Assembly: GCA_913060875.1 (NCBI GenBank)
Contig: CAJXSL010000001.1
Location: 640,464 to 704,463 of the forward strand
Length of the DNA: 64,000 nt
Reading direction: 5' to 3'
Source: an uncultured Desulfobacteraceae bacterium
Lineage (GTDB): Bacteria; Desulfobacterota; Desulfobacteria; Desulfobacterales; UBA5852
Positions 37,327-55,559 of the stretch are shown here, in pieces. The notes under the pieces are model-generated. The model did no database searches and was not told the DNA's origin. It saw only the letters and a program-made list of their open reading frames with translations. Made by a program: the position numbers and the translations under genes. Position 1 is the stretch's first letter; the number at the start of each line of letters is the position of its first letter.

Positions 37327-37403
37327 GGCGATGTAGCTCAGCTGGTCAGAGCATGCGGCTCATATCCGCAGTGTCCGGGGTTCAAGTCCCTGCATCGCCA
37401 CCA
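37327..37403 (+). tRNA. tRNA with anticodon CAT (tRNA-Met, elongator type)
   Basis: The acceptor stem GGCGATG pairs with CATCGCC (37393-37399), followed by A and an encoded CCA. The anticodon stem TGCGG/CCGCA encloses the loop CTCATAT with anticodon CAT at 37361-37363. The T-loop GTTCAAGTC is normal. CAT can mean Met or, after lysidine modification, Ile (AUA); the sequence alone suggests elongator Met. Its 3' end is the integration site of the adjoining element. Confidence 0.93.
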
Positions 37404-37404
37404 T
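37387..37404. repeat. attL: 18-bp tRNA 3' end attachment repeat
   Basis: TCCCTGCATCGCCACCAT covers the end of the T-arm, acceptor stem and CCA of the tRNA. An exact copy lies at 54104-54121. The two copies bound a 16.7-kb stretch whose first gene is a tyrosine integrase, the classic layout of a tRNA-integrated element. Confidence 0.85.
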
Positions 37405-37450: not shown

Positions 37451-37503
37451 ATTTGGCCGACTTTCATGTACACATTCACTGTACACATGGAGGTCGGCCA
37501 AAT
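37451..37503 (+). promoter_or_regulatory. Perfect inverted repeat enclosing the integrase start region
   Basis: ATTTGGCCGAC (37451-37461) and GTCGGCCAAAT (37493-37503) are perfect 11-bp arms. The right arm ends inside the ATG at 37502, and the Shine-Dalgarno GGAGG lies in the loop just before it. Within the loop, two TGTACA hexamers flank CATTCAC. The repeat could be an operator, an integrase arm site or an RNA hairpin limiting translation. Confidence 0.65.
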
Positions 37504-39163
37504 GCGTTTTACAGGCCCAAGTTTCATCATCAGTACATCTTTCGGATACATCTTCCGATTGCGTGTCCCCACCGATCTACAAAATCAAATTGGGTTGACC
37601 GAAATCCGTCGATCACTTAAAACTCGAAGTCGGCGGAAGGCAAAGACATTAGCTCGATCTGTCGCTGGCCGTATTCAGACCCTCTATGAACTCTTACGGA
37701 ATGGAAACATGTCACTGACGCCGGATCAAATCAAATATTTAATCGATGGTTATATTTCAGAGGCTTTGCAGGAGTCGGAATCTGCAAGAGCGAAAGCCAC
37801 CCCCCTGACCCCCCAGGAACTTCTTGAATACAAGGCGGCAGCCTCTTGTGATCTCAAGGATGCTTGGAGCAACCTGACACATTTCAATCACGATGATGCT
37901 AAACCGATTTTGGAAGAACTGATCGCTCAGAATGGTCTCACTCTCGATACTGATGATGAAGCCCATTTATCGCGTGAAATTTTAAAAGCCCGTATTGATT
38001 TTCTGCGGTACGAATTAGCCCGCTTGGATGGCGATTATCGCCCGCCGGAAGGATTGTTTTACTCTGGTGCGAAAGAAATGGTCACAGAGGCGACCATTCG
38101 CGAAATTTTTCCCAAGGCGAACAAAGGCCCAGCATTGAAAACGATGTTGGCGGGCTATAAAGCTGAAATGCTAAAAGCCCGGCGATGGAGTGTGCGAACG
38201 GTCGATGAGTATGAGCGGGCCTATGACATGATGCTCCGGTTTTTCGGTGATCCTCCCGTGGACCAGATCACCCCCGCGCAATGCCGGGAGTACAAAGAGA
38301 CGATCACGGCCATGCCACCGAACTTTTTAACAATAAAAAAATTTGCCGACGTTGACCTCCATACCGTTCGGGATATGCGATTTCCGAAAACTATGTCAGC
38401 GTCGAGCTGCAACAAATATCTGACGTGTCTTTCGCAACTGTTTGATTGGGGGGTGCGCCAGGGGCATCTAACTGCGAACCCGGCCAAAGGGCTGCGATTA
38501 CCAAGAGCAAAGAAGCCACGCGAACAGCGGAAGGTGTTCGATAACGACGATTTGAAATCACTGTTTGGCTCCCCGGAATACCGAACCGGATCATTCCGTC
38601 ACGACTGGCAGCGTTGGCTGCCCTTGTTGGGTCTGTTTACCGGCTGCCGCTTGGAGGAATTGTGCCGGTCGCACTTATCCGACTATAGGGATGTCGATGG
38701 GCTCCCGTGCCTGGATATCAACGACGAGGGTGATAGACGCCTCAAAAACGAGAACAGCCCCAGGATAATCCCGTTGCACCCTTACTTGTTCGACGATCTG
38801 GGCTTTTGCAATTGGCTTGACAGGCTCCGAGCCGATGATCACACAGGGCGAATCTTCCCTGAGCTAAAAGAGATAAGGCATTGTTTTGGCCATTATCCTT
38901 CTCGCTGGTTTGGGAAATACAAGAAGGGTTGCGGCATAGCCGACGAAAAAAAAGCTTACCACTCTTTTAGGCATGTGTTTAGCGATCGGCTGAAACAGAA
39001 TGGTGTTAGCATCTTGATGATTGACGAATTGACCGGCAGGGCACCACAGGGGGAAACCGCATCCAGATACACCGAGCGATACAGCCCCAGGCATCTGCTC
39101 GACAAGGGGATAATGAAATTGGATTTCACCGCCGTCCTGGAAGCCGTCAAACCGTTCCGCTGA
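37502..39163 (+). CDS. Tyrosine-type site-specific integrase (element 1)
   Basis: A 553-residue tyrosine recombinase. The N-terminal SAM-like part begins with a short arm domain (SFIISTSFGYIFRLRVPTDL) of the DUF6538 type. Catalytic residues visible are R in TGCRLEEL, the H-x-x-R pair in HSFRHVF and the nucleophile Y in SRYTERY; the second active-site H is replaced in LTGRAP. It is the first gene inside attL and is oriented away from the tRNA. The ATG at 37502 follows GGAGG. A larger-than-usual central segment (about 120-230) precedes the core-binding domain. It should catalyse insertion and excision of the element. Confidence 0.9.
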   Translation: MRFTGPSFIISTSFGYIFRLRVPTDLQNQIGLTEIRRSLKTRSRRKAKTLARSVAGRIQTLYELLRNGNMSLTPDQIKYLIDGYISEALQESESARAKATPLTPQELLEYKAAASCDLKDAWSNLTHFNHDDAKPILEELIAQNGLTLDTDDEAHLSREILKARIDFLRYELARLDGDYRPPEGLFYSGAKEMVTEATIREIFPKANKGPALKTMLAGYKAEMLKARRWSVRTVDEYERAYDMMLRFFGDPPVDQITPAQCREYKETITAMPPNFLTIKKFADVDLHTVRDMRFPKTMSASSCNKYLTCLSQLFDWGVRQGHLTANPAKGLRLPRAKKPREQRKVFDNDDLKSLFGSPEYRTGSFRHDWQRWLPLLGLFTGCRLEELCRSHLSDYRDVDGLPCLDINDEGDRRLKNENSPRIIPLHPYLFDDLGFCNWLDRLRADDHTGRIFPELKEIRHCFGHYPSRWFGKYKKGCGIADEKKAYHSFRHVFSDRLKQNGVSILMIDELTGRAPQGETASRYTERYSPRHLLDKGIMKLDFTAVLEAVKPFR

Positions 39164-41440: not shown

Positions 41441-41442
41441 GC

Positions 41443-41601: not shown

Positions 41602-41984
41602 CATCATATGACGAAGCACTTGCACGCTACATTGAAAACGGCCGATCCGCCGGCATAGGCCAGGCCCCTGAAAAACAACTCGACGCAGCATTCCGCCGGC
41701 AGCACAGCATACCGACACCCCGGCCGAAGGCACCGGCCAAACAACCCCCGGCTACCGACGATCTGCAAAAGGCCGTCAACACCCTGGATGATCTATCGAA
41801 GGGTAAGGTTGGCAAGCCGACCAAGCGACCGATTAAACCACGCCCGACGAAGCTGGAAGCCCACCGCCGCCGGATGCAGGCCATTGGCCGAAAGGGCAGG
41901 GCAGCATTTGCAGCGGCCATGGTTCGGGCAGGAAAGCCTTTGCGGGAGGTCCGCAGAATCGCCCAGGGCGAGCGATTGCCGTAG
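41598..41984 (+). CDS. Basic hypothetical protein of element 1
   Basis: A 128-residue, strongly basic protein (Lys, Arg and Pro rich from about 40 to 100) with a C-terminal helical segment AHRRRMQAIGRKGRAAFAAAMVRAGKPL. The composition suggests nucleic-acid binding but no fold is recognised. It closes the coupled run that began with the Rep-like gene. Confidence 0.55.
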   Translation: MTSYDEALARYIENGRSAGIGQAPEKQLDAAFRRQHSIPTPRPKAPAKQPPATDDLQKAVNTLDDLSKGKVGKPTKRPIKPRPTKLEAHRRRMQAIGRKGRAAFAAAMVRAGKPLREVRRIAQGERLP

Positions 41985-42101
41985 TGGGTCAGCTCCGGCC
42001 GTTTGTTGAGCGTGAAACGGCCGGGGCATCGCCCGCCGGTGGCTTGTTCCCCCTTGTCGCCGGCGGGCATTTTTCATCCATTCGAAAAGAGAGGTGTAAT
42101 T

Positions 42102-42647
42102 ATGCGAATGACGAAACGTTCACAAGCACGTGCGATATATTTGGCCCATTTCGGAGCCATCACATTTTCTGAGTTGGCGAAAACAGTTGGCTGTAACCGT
42201 TCGACCGTATCACGGTGGGCGCGTGCCGACGATTGGGATGCGGAAGTCGAGAAGATAAAAACGAATTCGGCATGTCGGCTGGCAGAACATTTTTCCGATG
42301 GCATTGCAAACCTGCTTGAAGCCGATCTGGGTCGGCTGGAAAAAATTGGGGAATTGATTGACAGCCGGCTCGAAGGGGCGAAAACCATGGCATCCTCAGA
42401 GATAAAGCAACTAATTGATGCTGTGGCGCAAAAAGTCCGGGCGTTGCGATTGCTGGCCGGTCAGTCGACATCAAATACAGCGGTGGCCGTCCGGGAGGAA
42501 CGGCCTGCCAACGATGTCCCACAGCCTAAATCCAATTTTGAAAAGCGTGTTGAGGATATCGCCCGCACCGGTGACCCGGAAGCCCAAAAGGCTTTGATGG
42601 CCATCGCAGAAAACTTCTCTAAACTCGATGCGCCTTTAGAGGGCTGA
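42102..42647 (+). CDS. Helix-turn-helix protein resembling phage small terminase subunits
   Basis: A 181-residue protein starting at ATG after GAGAGGTG. Residues 6-45 (ARAIYLAHFGAITFSELAKTVGCNRSTVSRWARADDWD) match the DNA-binding helix-turn-helix of small terminase or transposase-like proteins. The rest is mainly helical with possible coiled-coil. No large terminase gene follows, so packaging is not supported; a regulatory or partition role is possible. It lies 117 bases after the previous gene, which leaves room for its own promoter. Confidence 0.55.
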   Translation: MRMTKRSQARAIYLAHFGAITFSELAKTVGCNRSTVSRWARADDWDAEVEKIKTNSACRLAEHFSDGIANLLEADLGRLEKIGELIDSRLEGAKTMASSEIKQLIDAVAQKVRALRLLAGQSTSNTAVAVREERPANDVPQPKSNFEKRVEDIARTGDPEAQKALMAIAENFSKLDAPLEG

Positions 42648-42756
42648 CCGCTGCAACGTTGGCAATCATTCCCGCACCAGATGCAACACTGCCTGGAGGC
42701 TTTAAGATAGACGAGAAAAAGACGGGCAGGGTAGGATATCCGAGAAGATGATCGTG

Positions 42757-42790
42757 TGTCATCCCCGACCGCTTTCGGCTGGGGATGACA
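42757..42790. terminator. Inverted repeat between convergent genes
   Basis: TGTCATCCCC (42757-42766) and GGGGATGACA (42781-42790) are perfect 10-bp arms around a 14-base loop. Placed between genes converging from both sides, it probably terminates transcription in one or both directions, although the T-run is weak. Confidence 0.45.
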
Positions 42791-42823
42791 TTAACCTAAA
42801 ATTGTCCTGGAAGATTTTAATCT

Positions 42824-43390
42824 TTAAAATTCACAAAAAATTCTTTTAATAAATGGCTTTGAATACAAGATGTATGGCTTACGGTCACCCATGATATTTT
42901 CCGTGGTAATACGCCAATTATCTAAAAAATCTGAATGGTTATCAGGGTTTTTGTAGACCTTGTTTCTGAACTCATCGTTAAGCATTGGATTGTCATGAGT
43001 AAGAAGGGCATAAAGATTGGCGAAATTTCCCCTCCTTATCTCCCCATCGGGATTCCTTGTGTTGAATTCGAACGTTAGATAGTAAGCGCTCTGGTCTGGA
43101 TCGCGCGGAGTAGAACGAAATAATAACACTCGTTCCACATGCCCGAGACTTTCGGCCCAATCTTTTGCCCAAATTTGGAATTGGGTCAGATTAAACAATG
43201 GATACATATTTTCAGCATTTTTTGCCTTCCATTTTCGATTTGCATTAAAGATTTCAGCTACCACTACCAAAGCAATGCAACCGATAACCACATATAATAA
43301 TTTCCCCTTCGATATTAAAGAGCCCTCAAGTAGTAGGGCAACAAACATGCCTCCCAACATTCCTCGCGCCCATTCCATGACTTTTTCCAT
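42824..43390 (-). CDS. Small membrane protein, AT-rich cargo
   Basis: A 188-residue protein. Two hydrophobic segments near the N-terminus (GMLGGMFVALLLEG and LLYVVIGCIALVVVAEIF) anchor a cytoplasmic C-terminal domain of about 130 residues, which contains aromatic-rich strands and no known motif. The ATG at 43390 is chosen for AAGGA at seven bases. It opens the AT-rich cargo region, where codon use is unlike the host genes. Function not recognised. Confidence 0.6.
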   Translation of the reverse strand: MEKVMEWARGMLGGMFVALLLEGSLISKGKLLYVVIGCIALVVVAEIFNANRKWKAKNAENMYPLFNLTQFQIWAKDWAESLGHVERVLLFRSTPRDPDQSAYYLTFEFNTRNPDGEIRRGNFANLYALLTHDNPMLNDEFRNKVYKNPDNHSDFLDNWRITTENIMGDRKPYILYSKPFIKRIFCEF

Positions 43391-43915
43391 CACCATTTCC
43401 TTCGTTTTTAATACCGTTAATCATAGTTCATAAGAAAAATTTTGATTGATGTAGATGAACTTCGAACTTGATAGGGGGATATGGCTATTGAATGTTGATG
43501 AAAATGAGCATCATCTCAATATCAACAAAGCATTAATTGTCACCAAGTGCAAGTGCCGACTGGCAGAGACACAGAACGGGAGTTAATTTCCGTATCAGAT
43601 GTAAAACCAGGCAAGCTGGTTATATGACAAAATTTGGTCGGACACCTCGTTAACTTTCATACAAAAGATAACATCTTCATTCCATCATCATACAATTGCA
43701 AAATCAGGCTGTATTCAAAATGATAATTAAATGCCTAAAAAATCTTGACATAAATTTTTATCCATTTGATATTCAATAAATAATTGACCGATGTGCTTCT
43801 AATTTAGTTTCTTCCTCACTTAAAATTCTGCTTATTCGATTTCTGAACTCCGCCTCTTCTGACAAATATCTTATGTCATTAATAATTTTACATGAATTAA
43901 GCATGGGGGAGGTGC
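43391..43915. other. AT-rich intergenic region
   Basis: About 520 bases with no supported gene. It separates divergent genes at 43390 and 43916 and probably holds their promoters, but I see no pair of boxes good enough to name. Confidence 0.4.
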
Positions 43916-44917
43916 ATGATGGCTTTGAGCAAAGGTGTCGATGATATTTCTGTCCCTATAGGTCAGTGGTCGGAAAAACTTTATGATGTCTATAGTTCAA
44001 GGATGGAAAAACGGCAGCCAGAAGAGTTTTGGATGAATGTTCTTGCTCATTTAAGTGGAATTGGTGAGGCGATTCGTAAGACTCATTATGACGATTTGAT
44101 TTATCATGCTTCACATGCACTATCTTGGATGATTTGTTATGTCGGTAAATGTAATAGTAATGATGATCAATTTTTTCATATTACGAATAATTTGACGGAG
44201 CTTGTTGGTTTAAAATATCCCACTGAATGTGGGCACTGTGAAAAAAGACCTTGTCTATGTGATGCCATTGGCATGGATGAAGTGTCTGACAAAGCTGCAA
44301 AATATGGCAATCTTTATAACAAATGGACTTGGCATATTAAGGATAATGATTTTACGATTAATAAATGGATGGAAGTTTTTAAGGATATTTATGGGGGCCG
44401 CATCCATCTTCAAACAATGGATAGTCTTGGTTTTCATTTGTTGGAAGAAGGTGGGGAGGAAGCAAGGGCAATTCGACAGTTGGTTAGGTTTAGGGATGAA
44501 ATAGAATTGGGTAATGGTATAGAAGAAGGTTTCCTTTCTCGATTAGATAACATTGATTCATTGGTTACTGAATACAAACAGGCCAGTAAAAACATTATAA
44601 AAAAAGAAATTGATTACCCCGGTGGCAAAAAAAAAGAAGTAGTTGATGTTACAGTCAATACATCAGATCAGATTAAATATCGAATTGCTTTGTGTAAAAT
44701 GGATCTGGTAATTGAACTGGCAGATACTTTTTCTTGGTTTTGTGCAGTTGTTTTAAAGTTAAATATGATTCTTAACAATCACAATTTTTATAAGGGGATA
44801 AAATCAAATTATGACTTGGAACGAAGATTAAAAAAAGAATATAGTTTCAAAAATAAAGATGGTAATCTGAAATGTTCTTTCTGTAAAAAAAGTGATTGTA
44901 AATGTTGTTATATTTAA
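43916..44917 (+). CDS. MazG-like nucleotide pyrophosphohydrolase domain protein, cargo gene
   Basis: A 333-residue AT-rich gene with a strong ribosome site (GGGGGAGG). The text HLLEEGGEEARAI gives E178-x-x-E181, and VIELADTFSW gives E267-x-x-D270: the ExxE...ExxD pair that binds metal in MazG-type enzymes. An earlier helix pair (IGEAIRKTHYDDLIYHASHALSW) may be a second, diverged copy. Cysteine motifs lie at about 105-115 (CGHCEKRPCLC) and at the C-terminus (CSFCKKSDCKCC), likely zinc sites. MazG enzymes hydrolyse nucleoside triphosphates; the zinc tails and duplicated helices are unusual. Defence by nucleotide depletion is a guess from context. Confidence 0.55.
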   Translation: MMALSKGVDDISVPIGQWSEKLYDVYSSRMEKRQPEEFWMNVLAHLSGIGEAIRKTHYDDLIYHASHALSWMICYVGKCNSNDDQFFHITNNLTELVGLKYPTECGHCEKRPCLCDAIGMDEVSDKAAKYGNLYNKWTWHIKDNDFTINKWMEVFKDIYGGRIHLQTMDSLGFHLLEEGGEEARAIRQLVRFRDEIELGNGIEEGFLSRLDNIDSLVTEYKQASKNIIKKEIDYPGGKKKEVVDVTVNTSDQIKYRIALCKMDLVIELADTFSWFCAVVLKLNMILNNHNFYKGIKSNYDLERRLKKEYSFKNKDGNLKCSFCKKSDCKCCYI

Positions 44918-44940
44918 ATTTACAGAGGAAAAAACCTCTA

Positions 44941-45708
44941 TTAAGCATTTAATCTACATGAATCATTTTCTCCTGCTTTATCATTTAATGGCATAAACAA
45001 ATCTGACGAACATGGTTTAAAATTGTTTGGCCATTTTGTATATAATTTGCACAATAATTTTAATTGTAATGGTGCATCGGGGTTGTATTGAACTACAGAT
45101 GTATGTACGCTATCGGCACCGCAATATTTTAATAACAAATTGAAATCATTGGCGAAATATCTCGGGCAGTATCCAACCATGGAATATGGTTCATCTGTCC
45201 GCAATGTTAGGGCAACCGAATCTTTAGGATTCTGCAAATCAGCCATTAAAAATAGCTTGTCCCCTGGATTTAGTTCTTCAATTCGCTTTTTTGTTTGTTC
45301 TGGAAAATGACTTAATCCATGACTGAAAAATTTTACCAAATAGTAACCCTCTGGAGTTGGCTCTGGGCAAGGAAAAAGTTCAATGGAGTCCGTCCTTCGA
45401 ATACCTCCTGTTAATGATAGAATCATAAAGGGATTCACATCTTTTTCTTGGAGGTTGAGCCATTTAATAAACCTTTTATAATCTGGTCTGGAGCTCGATA
45501 ACAATCTGTTCGCAAATAATGGAAATAGATCTTCTGATTCATAAATATCATAAATATCTTTCATCCGTCCAAAAGGCATGAAACTATCAGATTGCGTAGC
45601 TCCTTTCGTATAATAAAACCTATAAATATTACCTTTTAATTCTAAGCAACCGATAGGGATCCATCTTCTATCAAATGGATCTTGCCAAGATAAAAATAAT
45701 TTTTTCAT
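44941..45708 (-). CDS. HIRAN-like partner protein of the HipA-like kinase
   Basis: A 255-residue protein. The C-terminal half has a HIRAN-like pattern (GDKLFLMADLQNPKDSVALTLRT, then MVGYCPRYFANDFNLLL), a beta-barrel fold often found with SNF2 and HipA-like genes. The N-terminal half (FDRRWIPIGCLELKGNIYRFYY) resembles the HipN-type entry of HipA proteins. Its ATG overlaps the stop of the kinase gene upstream (ATGA), which makes the two a unit. It may be an antitoxin-like or substrate-recruiting partner. The HIRAN assignment is by eye. Confidence 0.55.
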   Translation of the reverse strand: MKKLFLSWQDPFDRRWIPIGCLELKGNIYRFYYTKGATQSDSFMPFGRMKDIYDIYESEDLFPLFANRLLSSSRPDYKRFIKWLNLQEKDVNPFMILSLTGGIRRTDSIELFPCPEPTPEGYYLVKFFSHGLSHFPEQTKKRIEELNPGDKLFLMADLQNPKDSVALTLRTDEPYSMVGYCPRYFANDFNLLLKYCGADSVHTSVVQYNPDAPLQLKLLCKLYTKWPNNFKPCSSDLFMPLNDKAGENDSCRLNA

Positions 45709-46616
45709 TTCAAATCTTTCGCAGAATCAATAAGCCTTCTTTTATTTAAAAACAGGATCTTTTGGCCAAATTCAATGCCAATATCAGATAATTCTGTATT
45801 CGGTATATGTTCAAATGCTGACAGGATTTTCTCATCCGATATAGATTCAAGTTTTTCTATCCAATTTATAGCTGCCGATTTTGAATGCTTTGCTGCTTTA
45901 ATAAAAGCGTCTATAGTTGACAATCTTTTCACGACCGCTCCTGAAGAGAAAAAAGCCGATTTGGCACGTTCTACGTAAAATTGAAGATTTTGCCTTTGGT
46001 CATTGGTGGTTAATTTAAATTTTTTTACTTGATCTGATTCATTCCTACCTAAACTTGAGGCATGGTCATAAGTCGGTGCAAGATACGTTTGTTTCTCAGG
46101 TGTCCGGATTAATCCCCAGTTTTCATCGTGCCTATCCTGATTGGCTATCCATGCGTCAAACATTAAGTATGCTATAAAAACATCTAAGGCTGATTTTACG
46201 TTATTGAATGGATTAAATCCTAAAGGTGGTTTCGTAGAAACACTTTTCATTACAGCTAATACCATTCTCAATGGATGCTCTTTACGCTTATATAATTGTG
46301 TGCATTGTGCGTTTTTACTCTTTCGTATAAGCAGTTCATTCCCATGAACCAATCTGCACCCAATCGGGACAAAATTTTCGCTGATAACACCTTTTTGATT
46401 CCGCCAACTTGCCAGGTCATATATGGCATGTGGTATCCCTAAAATATCGCACAATCTACTGGAGACAACTTCAGCCCAATTCTCGCCGGTTCCAAGGCGC
46501 CCCTCTTTAAAAAGATAATCTTTGCCGTTTTCACCCCTGAACCAAAATTTAAATTTAGTCCCGAGTTGTTCAGGCAAGTCATAAGCATCGTCAGGTACAA
46601 TATAAAATTCTAACAT
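45705..46616 (-). CDS. HipA-like Ser/Thr kinase
   Basis: A 303-residue protein lacking the usual N-terminal domain of HipA but keeping the kinase core: FMFDAW-type helix followed by N159-Q160-D161-R162-H163 and N166, which gives the catalytic loop D-R-H-x-x-N, then YDHASS (D184) for metal binding. Family knowledge: HipA kinases phosphorylate glutamyl-tRNA synthetase or related proteins and arrest growth. It overlaps its HIRAN-like partner by four bases. The missing HipB-like DNA-binding gene argues against a classical toxin-antitoxin triplet. Confidence 0.7.
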   Translation of the reverse strand: MLEFYIVPDDAYDLPEQLGTKFKFWFRGENGKDYLFKEGRLGTGENWAEVVSSRLCDILGIPHAIYDLASWRNQKGVISENFVPIGCRLVHGNELLIRKSKNAQCTQLYKRKEHPLRMVLAVMKSVSTKPPLGFNPFNNVKSALDVFIAYLMFDAWIANQDRHDENWGLIRTPEKQTYLAPTYDHASSLGRNESDQVKKFKLTTNDQRQNLQFYVERAKSAFFSSGAVVKRLSTIDAFIKAAKHSKSAAINWIEKLESISDEKILSAFEHIPNTELSDIGIEFGQKILFLNKRRLIDSAKDLK

Positions 46617-46837
46617 TTCGAAAGGTTATTTCTGATTGAGTTAATTTACATCTATTATACTAAATGAACGTGACAGATCCGGTCACAGGTATGTCGCCTT
46701 TAGACTTTCAGCTTTGTGAATGCCTACCCCAACCTTGCCCACTTATGCAACCATCCATTTCAATCTGCTATTTTCCCTATTGGTTATAAATTCAAGAAAA
46801 TGATCGTTATTATGCTATTAAATATTTCATAAAAATG

Positions 46838-46858
46838 TTTGACTAACATACAGTCAAA
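46838..46858. repeat. Inverted repeat upstream of the serine recombinase
   Basis: TTTGACT (46838-46844) and AGTCAAA (46852-46858) flank a seven-base spacer 60 bases before the recombinase start. It could be an operator or a recombination crossover site. Confidence 0.4.
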
Positions 46859-46918
46859 TGATAGCGAATAAATATGTTTTTGACGTTTTCTTGAAATTTC
46901 TGACGAAAGGTCCCGAAT

Positions 46919-47608
46919 ATGGCACGGAAAAAACAGACCAAGCCCCCGGCGATGCAGCGTCAACCGATAATAAATGTTTCATACCTGAGGGTGAGTACCG
47001 TCGATCAAGATACCGAAAAGTTTAAGAACGATGTTTTGAAATTCGCCAATGATCGGGAATTCGGCACGGTTAAATTTGTTGAAGAATCGGTCAGCGGGAA
47101 AGTTTCATGGAAAAAGCGCAAGTTAAAAACGGTAATCGACGACCTGGGGCCAAGGTGCCGTTTGATAGTTCCAGAACTTTCGCGACTCGGCCGCAGCACG
47201 TTGGAAGTGTTAGAAGTCCTCCAAATCGCCAAGGCCAAAGGGATCGACGTCTTTGCGGTAAAAGAGAATCTTTCCTTGGACAGCTCTATTCAATCCAAAA
47301 TCATGACGACTTTGCTGGCCTTGTTTTCCGAGTTGGAAAGGGATTTCATCAGCCAGCGCACCAGGGAAGCTTTGAAGGCCAGGAAAGCCAAAGGTGTCCA
47401 ACTTGGGCGACCGAAGGGGCCAGGCAAAAGCAAGCTCGACCAGCACCGGGAGGAAATTATTGCCAGATTGACGCTTGGCGTCACAAAGAAACGAATTGCC
47501 GCCGATTATGGGGTGAGCCCTTCGACCCTGATAAATTGGCTTCGGAAAAATGAGATCGTCATTGAGCCCGCTGCAATCGCGGACCAAGGAAAGGAACCCC
47601 GGCAATGA
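46919..47608 (+). CDS. Serine recombinase (resolvase/invertase family)
   Basis: A 229-residue recombinase. The catalytic serine is S26 in YLRVSTVDQD; the arginines in LSRLGRS and the SELERDFISQRTREAL helix are typical. A C-terminal helix-turn-helix (TKKRIAADYGVSPSTLINWL) binds the site. It is of the short Hin/resolvase class and not a large integrase, so it may invert or resolve DNA within the element. Its GC-rich codon use is unlike the flanking AT-rich cargo. It overlaps the next gene by four bases. Confidence 0.88.
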   Translation: MARKKQTKPPAMQRQPIINVSYLRVSTVDQDTEKFKNDVLKFANDREFGTVKFVEESVSGKVSWKKRKLKTVIDDLGPRCRLIVPELSRLGRSTLEVLEVLQIAKAKGIDVFAVKENLSLDSSIQSKIMTTLLALFSELERDFISQRTREALKARKAKGVQLGRPKGPGKSKLDQHREEIIARLTLGVTKKRIAADYGVSPSTLINWLRKNEIVIEPAAIADQGKEPRQ

Positions 47609-47895
47609 AATCACCGCACCAAATCCGCCCCGCAGTGATCAGCGAACTTGAGCCCGATATGTTGGCAATGCTCCAATACCTCAGCGGTGCACAGCCAATC
47701 ATAGAGAATTGCGTCCATGCGGCCCCCGAACGCGGCGCGTTGTTCATCGCCAACGGCGGGCAGTACGTTTTCGCGTTGCTGACGGCGGACGATCTGACAG
47801 CAGCCGTTCACTATCTGAAGGCCGGTGAAATCACTGGAGCTGAGCTTGTGGCATGTCTCCAGTACGGCCCCCGGATGGCGTTGACGGTCGTTTGA
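47605..47895 (+). CDS. Hypothetical protein coupled to the recombinase
   Basis: A 96-residue protein whose ATG overlaps the recombinase stop (ATGA). It contains moderately hydrophobic segments (GALFIANGGQYVFALLTADDL) but no convincing membrane span or known motif. The coupling suggests it assists or controls the recombinase. It is followed by a perfect inverted repeat and a terminator. Confidence 0.6.
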   Translation: MKSPHQIRPAVISELEPDMLAMLQYLSGAQPIIENCVHAAPERGALFIANGGQYVFALLTADDLTAAVHYLKAGEITGAELVACLQYGPRMALTVV

Positions 47896-47905
47896 CAATT
47901 ACCAG

Positions 47906-47932
47906 GCAGACCTAAAGAATCTTTAGGTCTGC
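47906..47932. repeat. Perfect inverted repeat, 12-bp arms
   Basis: GCAGACCTAAAG (47906-47917) and CTTTAGGTCTGC (47921-47932) surround the loop AAT, eleven bases after the stop of the recombinase-coupled gene. It may be a site used by the recombinase or an RNA stem preceding the terminator. Confidence 0.5.
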
Positions 47933-47948
47933 AATAATCCACCAAAGG

Positions 47949-47976
47949 GCACCCTCATTAGGGGGTGCTTTTTTTT
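47949..47976 (+). terminator. Rho-independent terminator
   Basis: GCACCCTC (47949-47956) pairs with GGGGGTGC (47961-47968) with one wobble around ATTA, followed by eight T. It ends the recombinase transcript. Confidence 0.85.
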
Positions 47977-48159
47977 ATTTGGTAGCTCTTGCCTCTGCCA
48001 TAGCATAATGAAAACGTCATATGCAGAGACCAGGTCGAAAAGAATTAGGAGGGGGGGCTTGATGATCAGACCAGAGCCGACAAACGGCACTCCATACGGG
48101 GAAGGATAGGGGGCGTGGCGTCAGGAGTAGGTTTTCAGATTTTTGAGTCTGGGAATTAA

Positions 48160-48867
48160 TTAATCCTCTTTGCTTTTTATCCATTTTTTTATTTTAGATA
48201 AAACATCTTTGTCAATTTCGCTGCTATAGTCTTCAAGCCTGTTAACACGGTCAAGCATGTCACCAATCTTTTGCATATTTTTCTCCGCATCTTTAAGAGA
48301 ATCATCAACTACTTTTTCAAGCCTCTTATCGGCCCATTTGCTGCAAAAAGTTAATACCATACCAAGAAAAATTCCGGCAAACAAAATACCAAAAAAGCCA
48401 AACACTTCGTCCCAGTAAGTTTCACGAGTTTTAGCAATTCCACCTGAATATGATATTTCTTTTACAAATGATTGGTTCAATGATGAAGAAGTTTTTCCAG
48501 TTATGTCAACTTCGAAATAGATAAACAACCGCTGTTTAGGAACTATTCTTGGTATAGTGAAAGTAGAAGTTAGGTCACCAGATCCATATGTAAGATCCTT
48601 TATGCTTTTACTGGTTAAGTCGCTCTGAATATTGGTGATAGGATTGTTAAACTCCACAGCAATTGATACACCTTTAGCATCACTGTGGCCCAAATTGGTC
48701 AGAAACAACATTGTCACGGCCTTGGTGCCTGACGTATAGTAGCTGCCTGTCGAATATTTTAAAAAAGGACTATACCATTCTCTAATTCCAATGTGAGCCA
48801 TAATTGAGAGAATAGCAGCGCCAAAGGCTGCAACCAGAGTGACTGTCTGCCCTTTTGATAGTGCCAT
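48160..48867 (-). CDS. Membrane protein, AT-rich cargo
   Basis: A 235-residue protein with transmembrane helices near residues 8-27 and 150-172 and an extracytoplasmic beta-rich domain between them (VTMLFLTNLGHSDAKGVSIAVEFNNP). The C-terminus after the second helix is a cytoplasmic coiled coil (KRLEKVVDDSLKDAEKNMQKIGDMLDRVNRLE). Function not recognised. It is the downstream member of a minus-strand pair with a secreted protein 12 bases away. Confidence 0.6.
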   Translation of the reverse strand: MALSKGQTVTLVAAFGAAILSIMAHIGIREWYSPFLKYSTGSYYTSGTKAVTMLFLTNLGHSDAKGVSIAVEFNNPITNIQSDLTSKSIKDLTYGSGDLTSTFTIPRIVPKQRLFIYFEVDITGKTSSSLNQSFVKEISYSGGIAKTRETYWDEVFGFFGILFAGIFLGMVLTFCSKWADKRLEKVVDDSLKDAEKNMQKIGDMLDRVNRLEDYSSEIDKDVLSKIKKWIKSKED

Positions 48868-48879
48868 AACCGTTTTTCC

Positions 48880-49401
48880 CTATTTATCGAAAGATAGTGA
48901 ATTATATATCCCCCTGAATGTTTTCAAGTTTATCTCAAATTTACTGCCCGAATCTGTAAATGTAATTGTAAAGAGATTTTCATCTCTAACCCACTGTATT
49001 GTATAGTATCTTAACCGATTATTGCCTTCAATTTGTCTTTTTATATCGCTATCTTTAAGCTGATAAATACAATGTCGAAATTGCTCATTTTTGACGGTTT
49101 CGATATACTTTTCAAAAATGTGTACTTTGTCATAAAAAGGATAGAAAGTATCTTTTAAGGAAAACTGTTTTACCGAATGATAGCCTTGTGCATTTTGGAC
49201 ATTGATATTAATATTTTCACCCGACCCAAGTTTTGCAAATGAAACCAATGTCCATGTTTTTTTTGGTTTTGTTCTTGTCCAATCATTTGGCATTTCAATT
49301 GAAAACTTATATAAATCTGAATGAAAAAGTTTAGCATGTACTGTATCTGCAGCCGCAGAGCTGAATATTAGAACCAGAATCGCAACAATGGTTTTGTTCA
49401 T
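48880..49401 (-). CDS. Secreted protein, AT-rich cargo
   Basis: A 173-residue protein with a signal peptide ending near residue 23 (AADTVHAKLF). The mature part (LYKFSIEMPNDWTRTKPKKTWTLVSF, then RYYTIQWVRDENLFTITFTD) reads as a beta-sheet domain like PsbP or other lipid- or ligand-binding folds. No catalytic residues are evident. Placed 12 bases before the two-helix membrane protein at 48867, so they probably act together at the envelope. Confidence 0.6.
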   Translation of the reverse strand: MNKTIVAILVLIFSSAAADTVHAKLFHSDLYKFSIEMPNDWTRTKPKKTWTLVSFAKLGSGENININVQNAQGYHSVKQFSLKDTFYPFYDKVHIFEKYIETVKNEQFRHCIYQLKDSDIKRQIEGNNRLRYYTIQWVRDENLFTITFTDSGSKFEINLKTFRGIYNSLSFDK

Positions 49402-49430
49402 TTTGACCTCCTACACCGTCGTTAATTTTG

Positions 49431-49664
49431 TCACTTAAAAATTAAGGCCAGTATTGCCACGATTGCCGATGCAAGTGCAGCCCAAGCTGCCCACTTTGCG
49501 GCTTTTGCTGATTCCTTTGCTGCATTTGCCATTGGTTCAATACGTCTGCGTTCAAGCTCATGTCTGCCAGCAGCACCACGCTCAGTGGTCTCAGGATAGG
49601 CGGCATGTACAATAACGGTATGCAATGGCAAGGTCTTGTATGTATCCATTTCATCAGGAGTCAT
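49431..49664 (-). CDS. Small membrane-anchored protein
   Basis: A 77-residue protein starting at ATG after GAGGA. The last 22 residues (WAAWAALASAIVAILALIFK) form a C-terminal transmembrane helix, preceded by an Ala/Lys helix. Tail-anchored proteins of this size are common near phage and defence genes. It is the first of three minus-strand envelope genes in this block. Confidence 0.6.
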   Translation of the reverse strand: MTPDEMDTYKTLPLHTVIVHAAYPETTERGAAGRHELERRRIEPMANAAKESAKAAKWAAWAALASAIVAILALIFK

Positions 49665-49994
49665 GGGGAAGTCCTCATTGAAAGCATCAAAAATGAATGG
49701 ATATTACGGAGGGAACACTATGAGCCATAACCCATAAGCCTTGCATCGGCAAGCCAATTTTAGTACCCGATAAAGATTCCTAATTATAACACTATATGCG
49801 GAGGTAAACAGTTAAGCCGTCATGAAGCACCTCATTTAGCTCAGGGGGGAGGGGTTAAATATAAAAGCAGCATTTTTTTTAGATGCACTATATTAAAAAT
49901 TGATAAATATAAAATAAGGATTGAATCAGATAAAAAAATGTAATAAATATTCTTTATGTTTTTGTTCTTGTTGTGGTTATTGGTTTTGGTCTAA

Positions 49995-50066
49995 TGAAAA
50001 AGCCAAACCTGCCGTGAGACAGGGACGGAAAGCCACGGGTCTCAAATGAGAAAGCCGGGTTGCCAA
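49995..50066 (+). ncRNA. Candidate GEMM-I (cyclic dinucleotide) riboswitch aptamer
   Basis: The text AGCCAAACC, a CCTG...CAGG stem with a GTGA tetraloop, GGGACGGAAAGCC, ACGGGTCTC and GCCGGGTTGCC follow the conserved order of c-di-GMP-I (GEMM-I) aptamers as seen in Geobacter-type RNAs. The GNRA loop and its receptor arm (TCTC-AAAT-GAGA hairpin) are in the expected places. The base aligned with G20 of the Vibrio Vc2 RNA appears to be G, which favours c-di-GMP over 3',3'-cGAMP, but I did this by eye. It precedes the terminator at 50053-50096 and the gene at 50119. Confidence 0.8.
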
Positions 50067-50096
50067 ATGTTTAAGGCAATCCGGCTTTTTATTTTA
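50053..50096 (+). terminator. Terminator overlapping the riboswitch 3' strand
   Basis: AGCCGGGTTGCC (50053-50064) pairs with GGCAATCCGGCT (50075-50086), followed by T4-A-T4. The left arm is also the 3' strand of the aptamer, so ligand binding should prevent the terminator from forming and turn the downstream genes on. This is inference from the overlap. Confidence 0.8.
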
Positions 50097-50118
50097 TAAT
50101 AACTAAAGGAAAATCGAT

Positions 50119-50457
50119 ATGGGAAAAGCTGCAAAGTTTAAAGAAAACGCCATACCAAAAAAGATTGTTACGGATGAAGAGGTTGGAGGATCCGGTGGTA
50201 AGGTAAGGGGTGAGTGTGGTGAATTGTTAGTTGATCTTATTAGAATAAATTTGGATATACATAAGCAATCAAACGTCGGTGATTCTATATCGGTTTCAAA
50301 GGAAAGCGACGGATTGGCAGTGAGAACAATAAATGGAAATTTAGGGTATATAGCATTTCATTATGAAGATGAAGTTAAAAGATGTAAATACAAAAAAGGG
50401 TTAATTTTTTCATTGGAGAGAAAACCAATTTATGCTGTGGTTAATTTAATAAAATAA
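50119..50457 (+). CDS. Riboswitch-controlled small protein, HIRAN-like in part
   Basis: A 112-residue protein with ribosome site AAAGGA and an AT-rich codon use. The C-terminal 60 residues (GDSISVSKESDGLAVRTINGNLGYIAFHYEDEV) resemble a small beta-barrel such as HIRAN, but the match is weak. The N-terminus is basic and flexible. It is the first gene of the riboswitch-controlled unit and ends 12 bases before the next. Confidence 0.65.
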   Translation: MGKAAKFKENAIPKKIVTDEEVGGSGGKVRGECGELLVDLIRINLDIHKQSNVGDSISVSKESDGLAVRTINGNLGYIAFHYEDEVKRCKYKKGLIFSLERKPIYAVVNLIK

Positions 50458-50469
50458 TGCCTCTTTTAA

Positions 50470-51624
50470 ATGGTAAAATATATTGATCAAAGTTTATGGT
50501 CTGATGAATGCGTGACAAAATGTATTATTTATAATTTGTGTCACGGGTCTCCTTCTGCGCCTTGTAAATGTTTGAATCCTCATATTCAAAATCAACGGAA
50601 GTGTTCTGATTGCCAATATATATGCAGGGAAAGAATTATTGAAGATGAAGAAACTGGTTTGGTAATCGATTTCGCTTCATATGTTAGAGACGGCTTACCA
50701 TTAGAAAAATTAGAGATAAATCAAATCGATTTAGGGCAACCGCCCTTCCTTATCTCGACAAACACCAATAGGCTTCCTGTAGGTTCAAAAGTACCTTTGA
50801 ATTATGTAGGTATTGATATAAAAGAGATTTTTCATGGTCGTAATGGTTCTTCCGTTCTTGATCGTCCAATTTTTGAGACTGAAAAAGCATTAAGAAAATA
50901 TTTGCGTATCAATGATGCCCCTACAATTATGGCAATATTAAATGGGAAAGATGATATTTTGGAAAATTTTTGGGCGATGGGAAAGCTTAATCGATTAAAG
51001 CTGTATAAATTATTTGAAAAAGCTGGAATTAAATTTGCCACATGCCCTACCTTCTCAATAATAGATGAAACATTAGGTTTTCCTGCTTCACATAATGTAT
51101 GTATGTTATTAAGGCATAACAGGGTGGCCGATGAAATGCAGCAGGCAGAATTTAATGTTGTGCCAAATATCTATTGGAGAAATGAATCCGATATTCTGAA
51201 ATGGATTGATTGGATTTCACATCAAGATAAATTATATTACATCTCAAGAGATTTTTCACGGACAAAAAAGGGGGCTCCATTTAAAAAGCAATTTAGCGAT
51301 TTTATTAAAATAATTGAAGAAGCAAATAAAAAGCTTCATGTTTTTATTATAGGCGTCGGTTGTGTAAAGGCCGCAGCTGTTACAATGAATATTGAAAATG
51401 CTGGCTGTACTTGTTCCATTGTGACTCCAGATCCTGTTATGGAGGGTATCGGAAAAGGGGCGGAACTAAAATTAAATTCTAATGGTGATGTTTCTTTTAG
51501 TAAAAATTGGGACTTTAATAAAGACGAATTGGCGATGAAAAACATTCTCACATTGAATAATCATATTGATAAGTATTGCGCTAAAAATCGACAGGCTAAA
51601 TTCAAATCGAATAAAGCTGTATAG
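50470..51624 (+). CDS. Riboswitch-controlled cysteine-cluster protein
   Basis: A 384-residue protein. The N-terminal 45 residues hold eight cysteines (CVTKC, C-x6-CKC, CSDCQYIC), likely a zinc or iron-sulfur site. The middle part (NVVPNIYWRNESDILKWIDWI) resembles DUF4417-type proteins often seen in phages, and later text (LHVFIIGVGCVKAAAVTMNI) looks like an alpha/beta barrel strand. No catalytic motif can be named. Start ATG at 50470 is 12 bases after the previous stop; no strong Shine-Dalgarno is evident, so translation may depend on coupling. Its riboswitch control is the best clue to its role. Confidence 0.65.
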   Translation: MVKYIDQSLWSDECVTKCIIYNLCHGSPSAPCKCLNPHIQNQRKCSDCQYICRERIIEDEETGLVIDFASYVRDGLPLEKLEINQIDLGQPPFLISTNTNRLPVGSKVPLNYVGIDIKEIFHGRNGSSVLDRPIFETEKALRKYLRINDAPTIMAILNGKDDILENFWAMGKLNRLKLYKLFEKAGIKFATCPTFSIIDETLGFPASHNVCMLLRHNRVADEMQQAEFNVVPNIYWRNESDILKWIDWISHQDKLYYISRDFSRTKKGAPFKKQFSDFIKIIEEANKKLHVFIIGVGCVKAAAVTMNIENAGCTCSIVTPDPVMEGIGKGAELKLNSNGDVSFSKNWDFNKDELAMKNILTLNNHIDKYCAKNRQAKFKSNKAV

Positions 51625-51725
51625 TTTAACCAAAAGGCCTTTTCCTGATAATCCTCATCTCATCATTTGCTATTTTTATCCAATTGTTTGAAAGTCCCAT
51701 GTGTTTGTATTACCGCTGGGTCATA

Positions 51726-52061
51726 CTAACGCGCTCGCGAAATCGCTTTACGAATTAAGTCTGGATCCAGGCCTTGAACAACGTACTTAGCAAGCAATTC
51801 TTGATCTGTGATTTCAGGGTTAGCCTCAATATCAGCTTTTATCACGGCCGAACTTAGCGTCAGCGCAACCCGGTAATCAAGATCGGCTTCCTGCTCAGCC
51901 GTTAACGGCGGCCAATGCGAAACCCCGCGGAAGCCGGCTCGGATGGCATCAGGCCCGATGTTGAATTTTTTGATTTCTTCGGCTGTGTAAGCGGTGCGAT
52001 AGGGGTTGTCGGACAGTGCGACTTTATATAGATCTATGCGTTTTTTCAACTTTATTTGCAT
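51726..52061 (-). CDS. Hypothetical protein coupled to the lipoprotein gene
   Basis: A 111-residue soluble helical protein. It begins MQIKLKKRIDLYKVALSDNPY and contains PLTAEQEADLDYRVALTLSSAVI. No motif is recognised. Its start overlaps the end of the upstream MORN-type lipoprotein gene by 10 bases, so they probably form a pair. Its GC content is higher than the lipoprotein's, which suggests a different origin. Confidence 0.55.
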   Translation of the reverse strand: MQIKLKKRIDLYKVALSDNPYRTAYTAEEIKKFNIGPDAIRAGFRGVSHWPPLTAEQEADLDYRVALTLSSAVIKADIEANPEITDQELLAKYVVQGLDPDLIRKAISRAR

Positions 52062-53026
52062 GTATCCTTATATAGTTCTAAATTATGGATGCGTTGTCCT
52101 TCAACATCATAATACTCCCATTCACCGATCGGTTCGTCTTGATCGAAATAACCTATTGTCCTAATTTTTCCTGATTCATAGTAATATACCCATCGGCCCT
52201 GTTTTTTACCCTTGTATTTATAACCTTTAACAAGAATAGTTCCCCTTATGCTATACCTTACATAGGGGGACAGCTTCTTGGGTCGTGTTTTTGAGTATGC
52301 TTCTTCTAAAGCATAGAATTTCGTTATCTTCCCTTCACTAAGGGACATTGCGCATAAACCAGTTTCTGGATCATCCGGATTTTCTACATGATATTTAAGA
52401 ATCCATCCTGGTGGAGTTGGCACATTGGAATCACCCATTCTATAGGCTCCATGAGGAGCTTTGTGGATTTCGAAATCCTTCGTAATTTTATCAAATTTTT
52501 CTGCTCTAACGGATTTCGTTTTGGTATCGAATACTAACAAATAAATTGGTTCTAATTCTGTTAGAGGGATGAAAAAATCTTTCGGATCTATCTTTTCAAT
52601 TTTGTTTTTCTCGTTTAAAAATTTACGAAAAAATACGACGGTTTCTTCTAATTTTATAGATTTTGTTTTGGTATCATAAAACAGAAGGTAAGAAGAAGGC
52701 TTTTTCACCTGAGTCAGAGAATAAAAAAAAGGATTCGATAAAATAATTTGAAAAACATCTAAACGGGACTTTTGTAATAATGTCAGCGGATTTACTGCTT
52801 TTGCTGAATTAGACTCGGGATCGTATATTAGCAGATAGGATGAGGGTGGGGCTTTTTCACTTGTATCGGGTTTTTCTGGAATTATAACATTTATGTACCT
52901 TGGTCCATTATCATCATGAAAAATAAGGGATGGGCCTTTTAACTCTCTTTCTATTAAATTTTCATTTATTGCAAAACAGCTAACCAAAAAGAAAGCAAAA
53001 AAAATGAATGGTATCTTATGATACAA
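52052..53026 (-). CDS. Lipoprotein with MORN-like C-terminus
   Basis: A 324-residue protein from a TTG start after AGGAG (nine bases). The signal sequence ends in a lipobox (LVSC17). The body repeats three times a motif such as YLLIYDPESNSAKA, SYLLFYDTKTKSIKL and YLLVFDTKTKSVRA, each about 60 residues apart. The C-terminus (GRWVYYYESGKIRTIGYFDQDEPIGEWEYYD) is MORN-like, a repeat used in antitoxin-like and membrane-associated proteins. It sits between two minus-strand membrane genes in the cargo region. Confidence 0.65.
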   Translation of the reverse strand: MYHKIPFIFFAFFLVSCFAINENLIERELKGPSLIFHDDNGPRYINVIIPEKPDTSEKAPPSSYLLIYDPESNSAKAVNPLTLLQKSRLDVFQIILSNPFFYSLTQVKKPSSYLLFYDTKTKSIKLEETVVFFRKFLNEKNKIEKIDPKDFFIPLTELEPIYLLVFDTKTKSVRAEKFDKITKDFEIHKAPHGAYRMGDSNVPTPPGWILKYHVENPDDPETGLCAMSLSEGKITKFYALEEAYSKTRPKKLSPYVRYSIRGTILVKGYKYKGKKQGRWVYYYESGKIRTIGYFDQDEPIGEWEYYDVEGQRIHNLELYKDTCK

Positions 53027-53039
53027 TCAGAAAATTCTC

Positions 53040-53570
53040 CTATGGAATACTTAACACTGTTTCATACTGCCATGCAGTATTTGTTTCGCTTGGGTGTAAA
53101 ACCTTCGTATTTATTAGCACTACCCTCACCGAATCGTGAAACTCAAATTCATAATAAATGTTTGCTATTTCACGGGGCCTCAGGAAATCTTTTGATTCTA
53201 TAGAACATTGATGTAGTATAGGCCACAGGATGTTTTCCTCATCTTCATTTTGAAGTGACCACCCTGCTTTTACTTTTGAATTGGCATCTTCTGTGAGTGG
53301 CAAGATCTTTTTGATTGTTATCAAAAGTTTTTTGATATTAATATCTACATTGCCAATATTTTCAATATCTATTGTTAGATGTCCCCAATATTTATTTTCG
53401 TCTAACTTAATGACGGCTAATTTATGCGTAAGATTTGCGCGCTCTATATTTTCACCGCGGGTCATAAACCATATGCCACCACAAATGATAGCTATGCTTG
53501 TTAGAACTGCACGGATTAGTTCCATCCATTTTTTTACGGAATCTGTATTCCATTGAAAATTATTTTTCAT
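53040..53570 (-). CDS. Membrane-anchored protein, AT-rich cargo
   Basis: A 176-residue protein with one transmembrane helix (about 18-36, AVLTSIAIICGGIWFM) and an extracytoplasmic beta-rich domain (YWGHLTIDIENIGNVDINIKKLLITI...). It resembles small immunoglobulin-like domains found beside phage genes, but no family is certain. It is the first gene of a minus-strand run with the MORN lipoprotein 13 bases downstream. Confidence 0.6.
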   Translation of the reverse strand: MKNNFQWNTDSVKKWMELIRAVLTSIAIICGGIWFMTRGENIERANLTHKLAVIKLDENKYWGHLTIDIENIGNVDINIKKLLITIKKILPLTEDANSKVKAGWSLQNEDEENILWPILHQCSIESKDFLRPREIANIYYEFEFHDSVRVVLINTKVLHPSETNTAWQYETVLSIP

Positions 53571-54070
53571 GTTTTCTCATGAAACTTCATATAGAGTATT
53601 ATAGATTGATTCGCCTCATCATTTAATGTCTTATCACCAAAGCAAATATGTTTGATGAGAAATTCAACATGCTTCTGTATAGTTCAGTGAGTAAAATCTC
53701 TGTAGTGCTTTTTGATTTAGGTTGAGTATTTGTATAATGGATGCTCTTACAAAACAGAAAAATGGATATAAGTCAAGTAAAACAGTATGTTAAATTATAT
53801 TGAATTTAAATTTTTGCTTGGTGGTAAACAATGTTTTAGTTAACAATTTTTAGAAATAAGTACTCAAGAACCATGAATATTTATAGGAAAAAATAATTCG
53901 GAAGATTAATCGGCAGTCAGCGGTTTACTGTATCTGTTCTAATACGTTTTACCTTGAAAATTTTGTACAAGTCTACTACACAAATTAGCTATACATATCT
54001 TCGCCACCGATGAAAAATATGAAAGTCGGCCTGAGGGAATTAGCCTATCATTACAAATAGTTGCAGAGGA
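53571..54070. other. AT-rich right end of element 1
   Basis: About 500 bases with no supported gene. Small inverted repeat AATAGT/ACTATT flanks position 54065. It is the likely arm-site region of the right end of element 1, next to the internal att copy. Confidence 0.4.
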
Positions 54071-55303
54071 CTATTTTGTTTCGATGGATTTCGATAGAGC
54101 GAATCCCTGCATCGCCACCATCGATAAGAATTGGCCGTAATCCTCAGGGGTTACGGCCTCTTTGTTTTCGGAGGGTGCGGATGGGGTGGTTTTGGGCGCA
54201 TCATCGAGGGTGTTCACCGCGCCCTTATCATCGGATGGAATGAGGTGCCCGTAGACATCCACAGTGATCTGGATGGAGCTATGCCCCATGGCATCCTTGA
54301 TGTAGGTTAGGGAGTGGCCGTCAGCGATAAGCAGCGAAGCGAACGTATGACGAATGCAATGAAGCTTCCTATAGTCCAATTCCGATTTAGTGAGTAAACG
54401 CTTCCAGACGTTCCTGGCGCTGTTCTGAGAGGTATAATCTCCCTTGGTATGGAAGATGATCGGTTCAACCTCGTTTGTCCCCGCCTTGAGTGCCTCTTCC
54501 TTGCGTTTCCGGTATAGCTCCCGCAAAGTGCTGTAGAGCTGGTTGGACATTTCAACGTTTCGGGCCTTCCCGGTTTTGGTGGACGTAAGCTTGCCATTCC
54601 GAAATGATTCTTGAATGACGATGTAACTGCGGTTCCAATTCACATTTTCCCACTTGAGCGCCAGAATCTCACCCAACCGCATTCCGGTTCGAAAGGCTGT
54701 CAGGAATAGAGGATAATAGTCGGGTCTGAGCTTCTGGCATGTCTGAAGGATCAACCCGACCTCATCCTTGGAAAAGACCACGATGGGCTTCTTGTGAAGC
54801 TTTCGTTGCATCCCCATCCGTTTCATGATGCCAGCACAGGGGTTATAGGTGATCAGTTCATAATCAATCGCGAATTCACAAACCCCACTGACCACGTTTC
54901 GAGCGGTTTCGACCGTACTGCGGGATAAGCCTTTGCTGTGGATCTGTCGGAAGGCTTTGAGAATGTCAGAACGCTTTAGTTCATCAATAGGAATGTTCCC
55001 CAATGGTTTTTTCAGATACATGCGCAACATGCTGCTGTAACGATTGTAGGTGGTGGAGCGCTTGGACGGTTTGACGTGCATAGCAAGCCACTGTTTAGCC
55101 AATTCATCAAAGGTGGGTGGGGCCTCTTTTTCGTTCATGACGTTCTGATCACCCAAAATTAGCCGCGCCTTAATCTTTCGGGCAATTTCATTGGCAAGCT
55201 TCTTGTCCTTGCCTACCTTCTTGGATTTGCGCCATCCTTGATGATTAATGAATATCCACCAATCACCAGAACCTTTCGGTTTCTCCCTGACCCTAACGCC
55301 CAT
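54071..55303 (-). CDS. Tyrosine-type integrase of element 2
   Basis: A 410-residue tyrosine recombinase of the phage type with a SAM-like N-terminal domain and catalytic core. Visible catalytic residues are R in FRTGMRLGEI, H and R in HCIRHTFASL, H in DAMGHSS and Y in VDVYGHL. The ATG at 55303 has GGGGAGG at six bases and overlaps the end of the upstream gene by 11 bases. The last 16 codons (MVAMQGFALSKSIETK) run across the att core and beyond, so part of the C-terminus is encoded by flanking DNA. It should integrate element 2 at the tRNA end. Confidence 0.92.
   Translation of the reverse strand: MGVRVREKPKGSGDWWIFINHQGWRKSKKVGKDKKLANEIARKIKARLILGDQNVMNEKEAPPTFDELAKQWLAMHVKPSKRSTTYNRYSSMLRMYLKKPLGNIPIDELKRSDILKAFRQIHSKGLSRSTVETARNVVSGVCEFAIDYELITYNPCAGIMKRMGMQRKLHKKPIVVFSKDEVGLILQTCQKLRPDYYPLFLTAFRTGMRLGEILALKWENVNWNRSYIVIQESFRNGKLTSTKTGKARNVEMSNQLYSTLRELYRKRKEEALKAGTNEVEPIIFHTKGDYTSQNSARNVWKRLLTKSELDYRKLHCIRHTFASLLIADGHSLTYIKDAMGHSSIQITVDVYGHLIPSDDKGAVNTLDDAPKTTPSAPSENKEAVTPEDYGQFLSMVAMQGFALSKSIETK
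54104..54121. repeat. Internal att copy, right end of element 1 and left end of element 2
   Basis: TCCCTGCATCGCCACCAT is an exact copy of the tRNA 3' end at 37387-37404. It lies inside the 3' end of the integrase gene of element 2. It marks the junction of two tandem elements. Confidence 0.85.
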
Positions 55304-55559
55304 TTTCATCCTCCCCGTTGAGGTTTCGCCGTGGCCGGTTTGCTTGGAACTTTTCGTCAATCCGCTTCCATGATTCGACTGCGGCATAAAGGGTGTCAAT
55401 TGCCGCGCTTGTGGTGGGACCGGCAGGGTGGGGGATTTCGGTGGTCAGTCTTAAGGCGTTCATGGCCGTTTCCACTGGCGCACGAACGACCAAAGTGACT
55501 TCATCCAAATAATCGATAAATGTGGGGTCGTTTATTTCCCCGTTCGAGACAGTGTGCAT
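55293..55559 (-). CDS. Small hypothetical protein upstream of the integrase
   Basis: An 88-residue acidic protein starting MHTVSNGEINDPTFIDYLDE with ribosome site AAAGGGGG. No motif is recognised. Its stop overlaps the integrase start by 11 bases, so the two are coupled and it may act as a directionality or accessory factor. A perfect 11-bp inverted repeat lies just upstream of its start. Confidence 0.6.
   Translation of the reverse strand: MHTVSNGEINDPTFIDYLDEVTLVVRAPVETAMNALRLTTEIPHPAGPTTSAAIDTLYAAVESWKRIDEKFQANRPRRNLNGEDENGR

Follow-up and report, generated by a model that had tools for sequence, protein, structure and literature searches.

A 16.7-kb element integrated at a tRNA-Met gene probably places a two-gene, putatively defence-associated operon under a class-I c-di-GMP riboswitch that would act as an ON switch of transcription. 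The sequence of the window, i.e., the whole 64-kb stretch of DNA that was analysed (G000:C1:640464-704463 of a 5.88-Mb genome), lends good support to the riboswitch, to the ON-type layout of its leader and to its location on a mobile element. The leader and the two genes behind it are arranged as follows:

49993..50068, + strand: GEMM-I (class-I c-di-GMP) riboswitch aptamer, recognised by RF03167 and RF01051 matches and by its contact bases
50050..50098, + strand: intrinsic terminator hairpin (50050-50089) with U-rich tail, the left arm being the aptamer 3' strand including the C92 equivalent
50119..50457, + strand: P0001, first operon gene, 112 aa, homologous to the product of a 117-aa Salinibacter neighbour gene
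50470..51624, + strand: P0002, 384 aa, DUF4417-like with an N-terminal cysteine cluster, according to tblastn relatives and alignment

The aptamer is the sole riboswitch that cmscan detected within the window. It matches RF03167 with 73.8 bits (E 1.3e-15, gathering score 59), and the check with the Rfam covariance model RF01051 that had been proposed in the initial annotation returned 67.9 bits against a gathering score of 35, confirming the GEMM-I call. Standard pairs are formed at 19 of the 21 consensus base pairs that have letters on both sides. The Rfam alignment places G50002, A50029 and C50063 at the positions G20, A47 and C92, respectively, which contact the ligand in Vc2 (PMC4744006). 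At 21:46, a C:G pair takes the place of G:C, a covariation that is shared by most GEMM-I RNAs of the order. While RF03167 is the top-scoring model, its consensus carries a G at the A47 position (model position 37), where the aptamer has an A; a G at this position would define the c-di-GMP-I-GGC variant according to our own reading of the RF03167 name, and the name was therefore not taken to indicate an altered ligand specificity. Likewise, the A at position 20 that characterises cGAMP-type aptamers is replaced by the G at 50002. Since G20, A47 and C92 are all present, c-di-GMP rather than cGAMP is expected as the ligand, in agreement with the specificity that had been suggested by eye. The predicted ligand is thus probably the ordinary c-di-GMP messenger, and nothing connects the riboswitch with a nucleotide of defence signalling.

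The left arm of the terminator stem (50050-50089, GAAAGCCGGGTTGCC / GGCAATCCGGCTTTT, followed by TATTTTATA; -24.7 kcal/mol) is formed by the final 18 nt of the aptamer, among them C50063, which upholds the shared 3' strand, and with it the predicted ON logic, of the initial annotation. In folds of the growing transcript, the aptamer (P2/P3) is the best structure up to approximately 84 nt and a mixed fold keeping P3 persists to 90 nt, whereas the terminator takes over from 92 nt, with the flip occurring between 90 and 92 nt. For the leader, the free fold has an energy of -35.8 kcal/mol compared to -22.6 kcal/mol when the aptamer is forced; because the terminator fold is approximately 13 kcal/mol more stable, switching must be kinetic. 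The leader is compact, with AAAGGA immediately 5' of the P0001 ATG. Without ligand, the aptamer 3' strand bearing C92 would pair downstream and form the terminator 20-30 nt 5' of the P0001 start codon, while binding of c-di-GMP would keep this strand in P3 and the ligand pocket and allow RNA polymerase to read through into P0001-P0002. The same type of platform, with a terminator made from the aptamer 3' strand including the C92 equivalent, is found in the experimentally studied ON riboswitch of pilM in Geobacter metallireducens, where the terminator sequesters C75, the C92 equivalent (PMC9262584). However, the pilM riboswitch responds to cGAMP, whereas the RNA described here has a G at position 20, with c-di-GMP as the expected ligand, and precedes other genes. 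Compared to c-di-GMP-I riboswitches in general (GEMM-I, RF01051 / RF03167, clan CL00126), it is alike in sequence, fold, G20/A47/C92 and terminator platform, but what it would control is the cargo of an integrated element rather than a host envelope, motility or cytochrome gene.

The location of the operon inside an integrated element, as initially annotated, is confirmed by the tRNA-Met 3' end (TCCCTGCATCGCCACCA), which recurs at 54104 and, just past the window, at 67208, where the third attachment copy comprises 17 nt (L061:3208). These repeats delimit element A (37387-54121, 16.7 kb), which holds the riboswitch operon, and a tandem element B (54104 to about 67225). With an attachment core at both ends and an integrase beside one of them, the arrangement is that of a tRNA-integrated mobile element:

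37327..37400, + strand: tRNA-Met (CAT), its 3' end being the left attachment core
37387..37404, + strand: left attachment core, TCCCTGCATCGCCACCAT, repeat of the tRNA-Met 3' end
37466..39163, + strand: element A integrase beside the tRNA, with DUF6538 and phage integrase domain matches
44941..45708, - strand: HIRAN-domain protein of element A, PADLOC candidate PDC-M03B
45705..46616, - strand: HipA-like kinase of element A, PADLOC candidate PDC-M03A
46919..47608, + strand: serine resolvase of element A
54071..55399, - strand: integrase at the left end of element B, its 3' end spanning the attachment core
54104..54121, + strand: middle attachment core at the junction of the two elements (right end of A, left end of B)

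The HIRAN/HipA-like pair of element A corresponds to the candidate defence system PDC-M03 of PADLOC. Element B carries a GEMM-I RNA of its own (L061:1891-1989, positions 65891-65989 of the extended window; 65.6 bits) with an overlapping terminator, behind which a PEP-CTERM gene is encoded (L061:2019-3001). A GEMM-I RNA (59.4 bits) is also present on a contig of a viral collection (L072, IMG/VR contig 3300005254_000003), and the second gene downstream of it resembles the PEP-CTERM gene of element B. At 61740-61826, element B furthermore contains three similar direct repeats of 28 nt each (GGGGGTGTCCCACGTTGACGCGCGTGTA).

The suggestion that mobile cargo listening to c-di-GMP would be new in kind does not hold: besides the GEMM-I RNA of the neighbouring element B, the class-I c-di-GMP riboswitches Cdi1_4 and Cdi1_5 are located in C. 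difficile prophages at a toxin-antitoxin locus, where high c-di-GMP lowers the antitoxin transcript (PMC3649979, PMC7699646, PMC11477304). These share with the present case that a class-I c-di-GMP riboswitch on a mobile element is linked to a conflict or maintenance locus. However, Cdi1_4 and Cdi1_5 are OFF switches on an antisense antitoxin RNA, whereas a predicted ON switch precedes two protein genes here. New features appear to be that the switch is predicted to be of the ON type, that its target is protein-coding and that this target is a defence-linked module. In a literature search that covered mainly non-subscription sources, no paper was found in which Wadjet, restriction-modification or a DUF4417 module is connected with a c-di-GMP riboswitch.

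The leader has close counterparts in the host. The genome contains 19 GEMM-I matches as well as 21 GGDEF matches over the cut-off, and in 9 of the 19 GEMM-I loci, including the copy of element A, terminator and aptamer have 14-22 nt in common; in most of the remaining loci the terminator lies farther downstream. Owing to this shared overlapping-terminator architecture, the element A leader appears to belong with the ON-type leaders of the host; most of the nine precede PEP-CTERM genes. The element A leader may have descended from these ON-type leaders, and the element would then switch its two-protein module on in sessile, high-c-di-GMP cells.

The nature of that module was approached through its relatives. 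The ORFs of 112 and 384 aa match the two-gene unit of the initial annotation, but its description as unrecognised genes is not wholly accurate, since the P0001 and P0002 types form a conserved pair in other genomes. Direct searches of Pfam, PHROGs, NCBIfam and PADLOC with both proteins gave nothing useful, and a profile search of solved structures gave no match. P0001, P0002 and P0003 had no match among phage records; P0002, P0003 and the alignment A1 had no relatives in the genome contigs and viral contigs; and no close relatives of P0002 were found in the 389 class genomes or 395 phylum genomes sampled. Single-sequence AlphaFold models of P0001 and P0002 were unusable (pLDDT 34-36), and a HIRAN-like fold of P0001, which was considered on account of its motif, found no support. 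The closest relative of P0002 is encoded on the Salinibacter ruber plasmid pSR56 (31% over 91%, E 2e-45), followed by plasmid proteins annotated as DUF4417 (E about 1e-5). The term DUF4417-like thus stands through these relatives, while P0002 itself has no match to Pfam DUF4417 (PF14386) at E up to 1; PF14386 matches 3 of the 6 aligned members, and the relationship of P0002 to DUF4417 is by tblastn only. In the alignment, C18, C24, C32, C34, C48 and C52 of P0002 are invariant across five DUF4417-like proteins.

In Salinibacter, a 117-aa gene is located directly upstream of the DUF4417-like gene, and its product aligns to P0001 with a score of 71 that was reached by none of 2000 shuffles; BLASTP by itself missed this link, which the shuffle test revealed. 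Plasmids of Aminobacter, Sinorhizobium and Rhizobium likewise encode a 115-116-aa protein followed by a DUF4417 protein, the similarity of these small proteins to P0001 being marginal (profile score reached by 9 of 3000 shuffles). Judged by sequence comparison, the small gene and the cysteine-cluster DUF4417-like gene are therefore a conserved pair in Salinibacter, with a more remote link to the rhizobial genes, and the gene order and the six invariant cysteines are common to the modules of all four genera. The rhizobial modules differ by STAS-like and GHKL-type genes and by a known defence system downstream: the pair precedes KwaA-KwaB (Kiwa) on the Sinorhizobium plasmid, Gabija (GajA-GajB, the gene after GajA being UvrD-like) on the Rhizobium plasmid, and HmaC/DUF499 genes on the Aminobacter plasmid. 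A further gene, of GHKL type in Aminobacter, is situated between the DUF4417 gene and the defence genes. The conserved rhizobial block (L160, L161/L162, L066) consists of a STAS-like or unnamed gene, the small protein, DUF4417 and the further gene.

The Salinibacter and rhizobial modules also differ from the element A operon in that they are without a detectable riboswitch. A search for repeated riboswitch linkage among homologues had been proposed initially, and it revealed no GEMM-I upstream of the homologous module at any of the four loci (Salinibacter and three rhizobial), which makes the linkage of riboswitch and module a single case. The initial hint at phage defence has gained circumstantial support from gene neighbourhoods, which make a defence connection of the cargo plausible, whereas the part that concerned the signal has not, as the predicted ligand is ordinary c-di-GMP instead of a defence nucleotide. 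Because relatives of the cargo genes adjoin known anti-phage systems, we propose that the mobile element may tie defence-linked genes to c-di-GMP, the biofilm and lifestyle signal of its host. How bacteria and mobile elements time the expression of costly defence genes is largely an open question, and a c-di-GMP ON riboswitch before a defence-linked module, if true, would represent a direct and testable wire from a lifestyle signal to immunity. It also points to a conserved, uncharacterised gene pair beside the Kiwa, Gabija and HmaC/DUF499 genes.

Two further GEMM-I RNAs were found upstream of defence operons. In the same genome, an intact copy (G000:C17; L073:13459-13533, - strand; 65.6 bits) is separated by 390 nt from a downstream helicase/type I restriction-modification operon, which opens with an SF1 helicase gene and continues with two HsdM genes, an AAA gene, HsdS and HsdR. 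In a congener (G003:C50; L155:5022-5096, + strand), a weaker and partly degenerate copy (RF01051, 48.0 bits) is followed after approximately 325 nt by a complete Wadjet operon (JetABCD). These 2 clear cases among 40 in five genomes of the genus are too few to claim an enrichment of defence operons behind GEMM-I, and since the terminators of the type I restriction-modification and Wadjet leaders are differently placed, ON logic was no longer assumed for every defence-linked case. A wider reading, in which the genus and its mobile elements place defence or defence-linked modules (element A, helicase/type I restriction-modification, Wadjet) under class-I c-di-GMP riboswitches, with immunity tuned to sessile life and the pair of small protein and cysteine-DUF4417 protein as an undescribed defence component, is tentative and, in our view, rather unlikely. 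Elsewhere on G000:C17 (L074:7869-13957), the Zorya genes ZorA-D are situated just upstream of another GEMM-I RNA, which itself precedes a rhomboid-like gene.

Three other explanations of the element A operon were weighed. P0001-P0002 could serve the maintenance or replication of the element and not defence, which we regard as somewhat unlikely, although DUF4417 domains frequently occur on plasmids and beside ParB-like proteins: DUF4417 genes adjoin ParB-like genes on actinobacterial plasmids, and ParB-CTPase-DUF4417 fusions were reported to be enriched in prophages (PMC12704722). Against a role in maintenance speaks that genes for a cysteine-cluster DUF4417 protein and its small upstream partner closely precede three distinct defence systems that are already known. 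It is less probable still that the leader is a captured host leader of the PEP-CTERM type, which recombined before unrelated cargo and has no special meaning, perhaps with leaky read-through. Such a capture would agree with the nine leaders of the same architecture in the genome, with the one that element B carries on a PEP-CTERM gene, and with the absence of GEMM-I from homologous modules elsewhere. However, the aptamer is intact, has all three contact bases and is followed by a strong terminator directly before the ribosome site, whereas decay should have cost one such feature, as it partly did in the Wadjet-linked aptamer of G003.

The switch might also sense another cyclic dinucleotide, e.g., 3',3'-cGAMP arising from phage attack, which would turn the operon into a direct infection alarm. 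cGAMP-selective GEMM-I RNAs share the clade and the fold, and by pattern match the cGAMP-type A at position 20 occurs in relatives within the order (L093, L099, L109, L125, L142 and L153). Yet this is highly improbable, given the G20 of the aptamer, the many GGDEF proteins of the genome and the lack of any CBASS-type gene beside the operon, as seen in its neighbourhood; among the 19 aptamers of the genome, no A20 variant was confirmed, with the degenerate copy L025 not placed. A c-di-GMP-responsive ON switch before a defence-associated operon remains our preferred reading.

A survey of 80 further GEMM-I loci in relatives showed that M23 peptidases, PEP-CTERM proteins and CHASE2 kinases are among the families most often encoded downstream. 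Where PADLOC matched genes behind GEMM-I RNAs to PD-T4-6 and C3a189, these hits were not counted as defence and were taken as generic kinase similarity, because Pfam finds Pkinase and CHASE2 domains in three members. Finally, consecutive arrays of GEMM-I RNAs were observed in several relatives (G014:C109:691-1207, G044:C102:7437-7793, G022:C75 and C79, and G025:C1:232182-232509).
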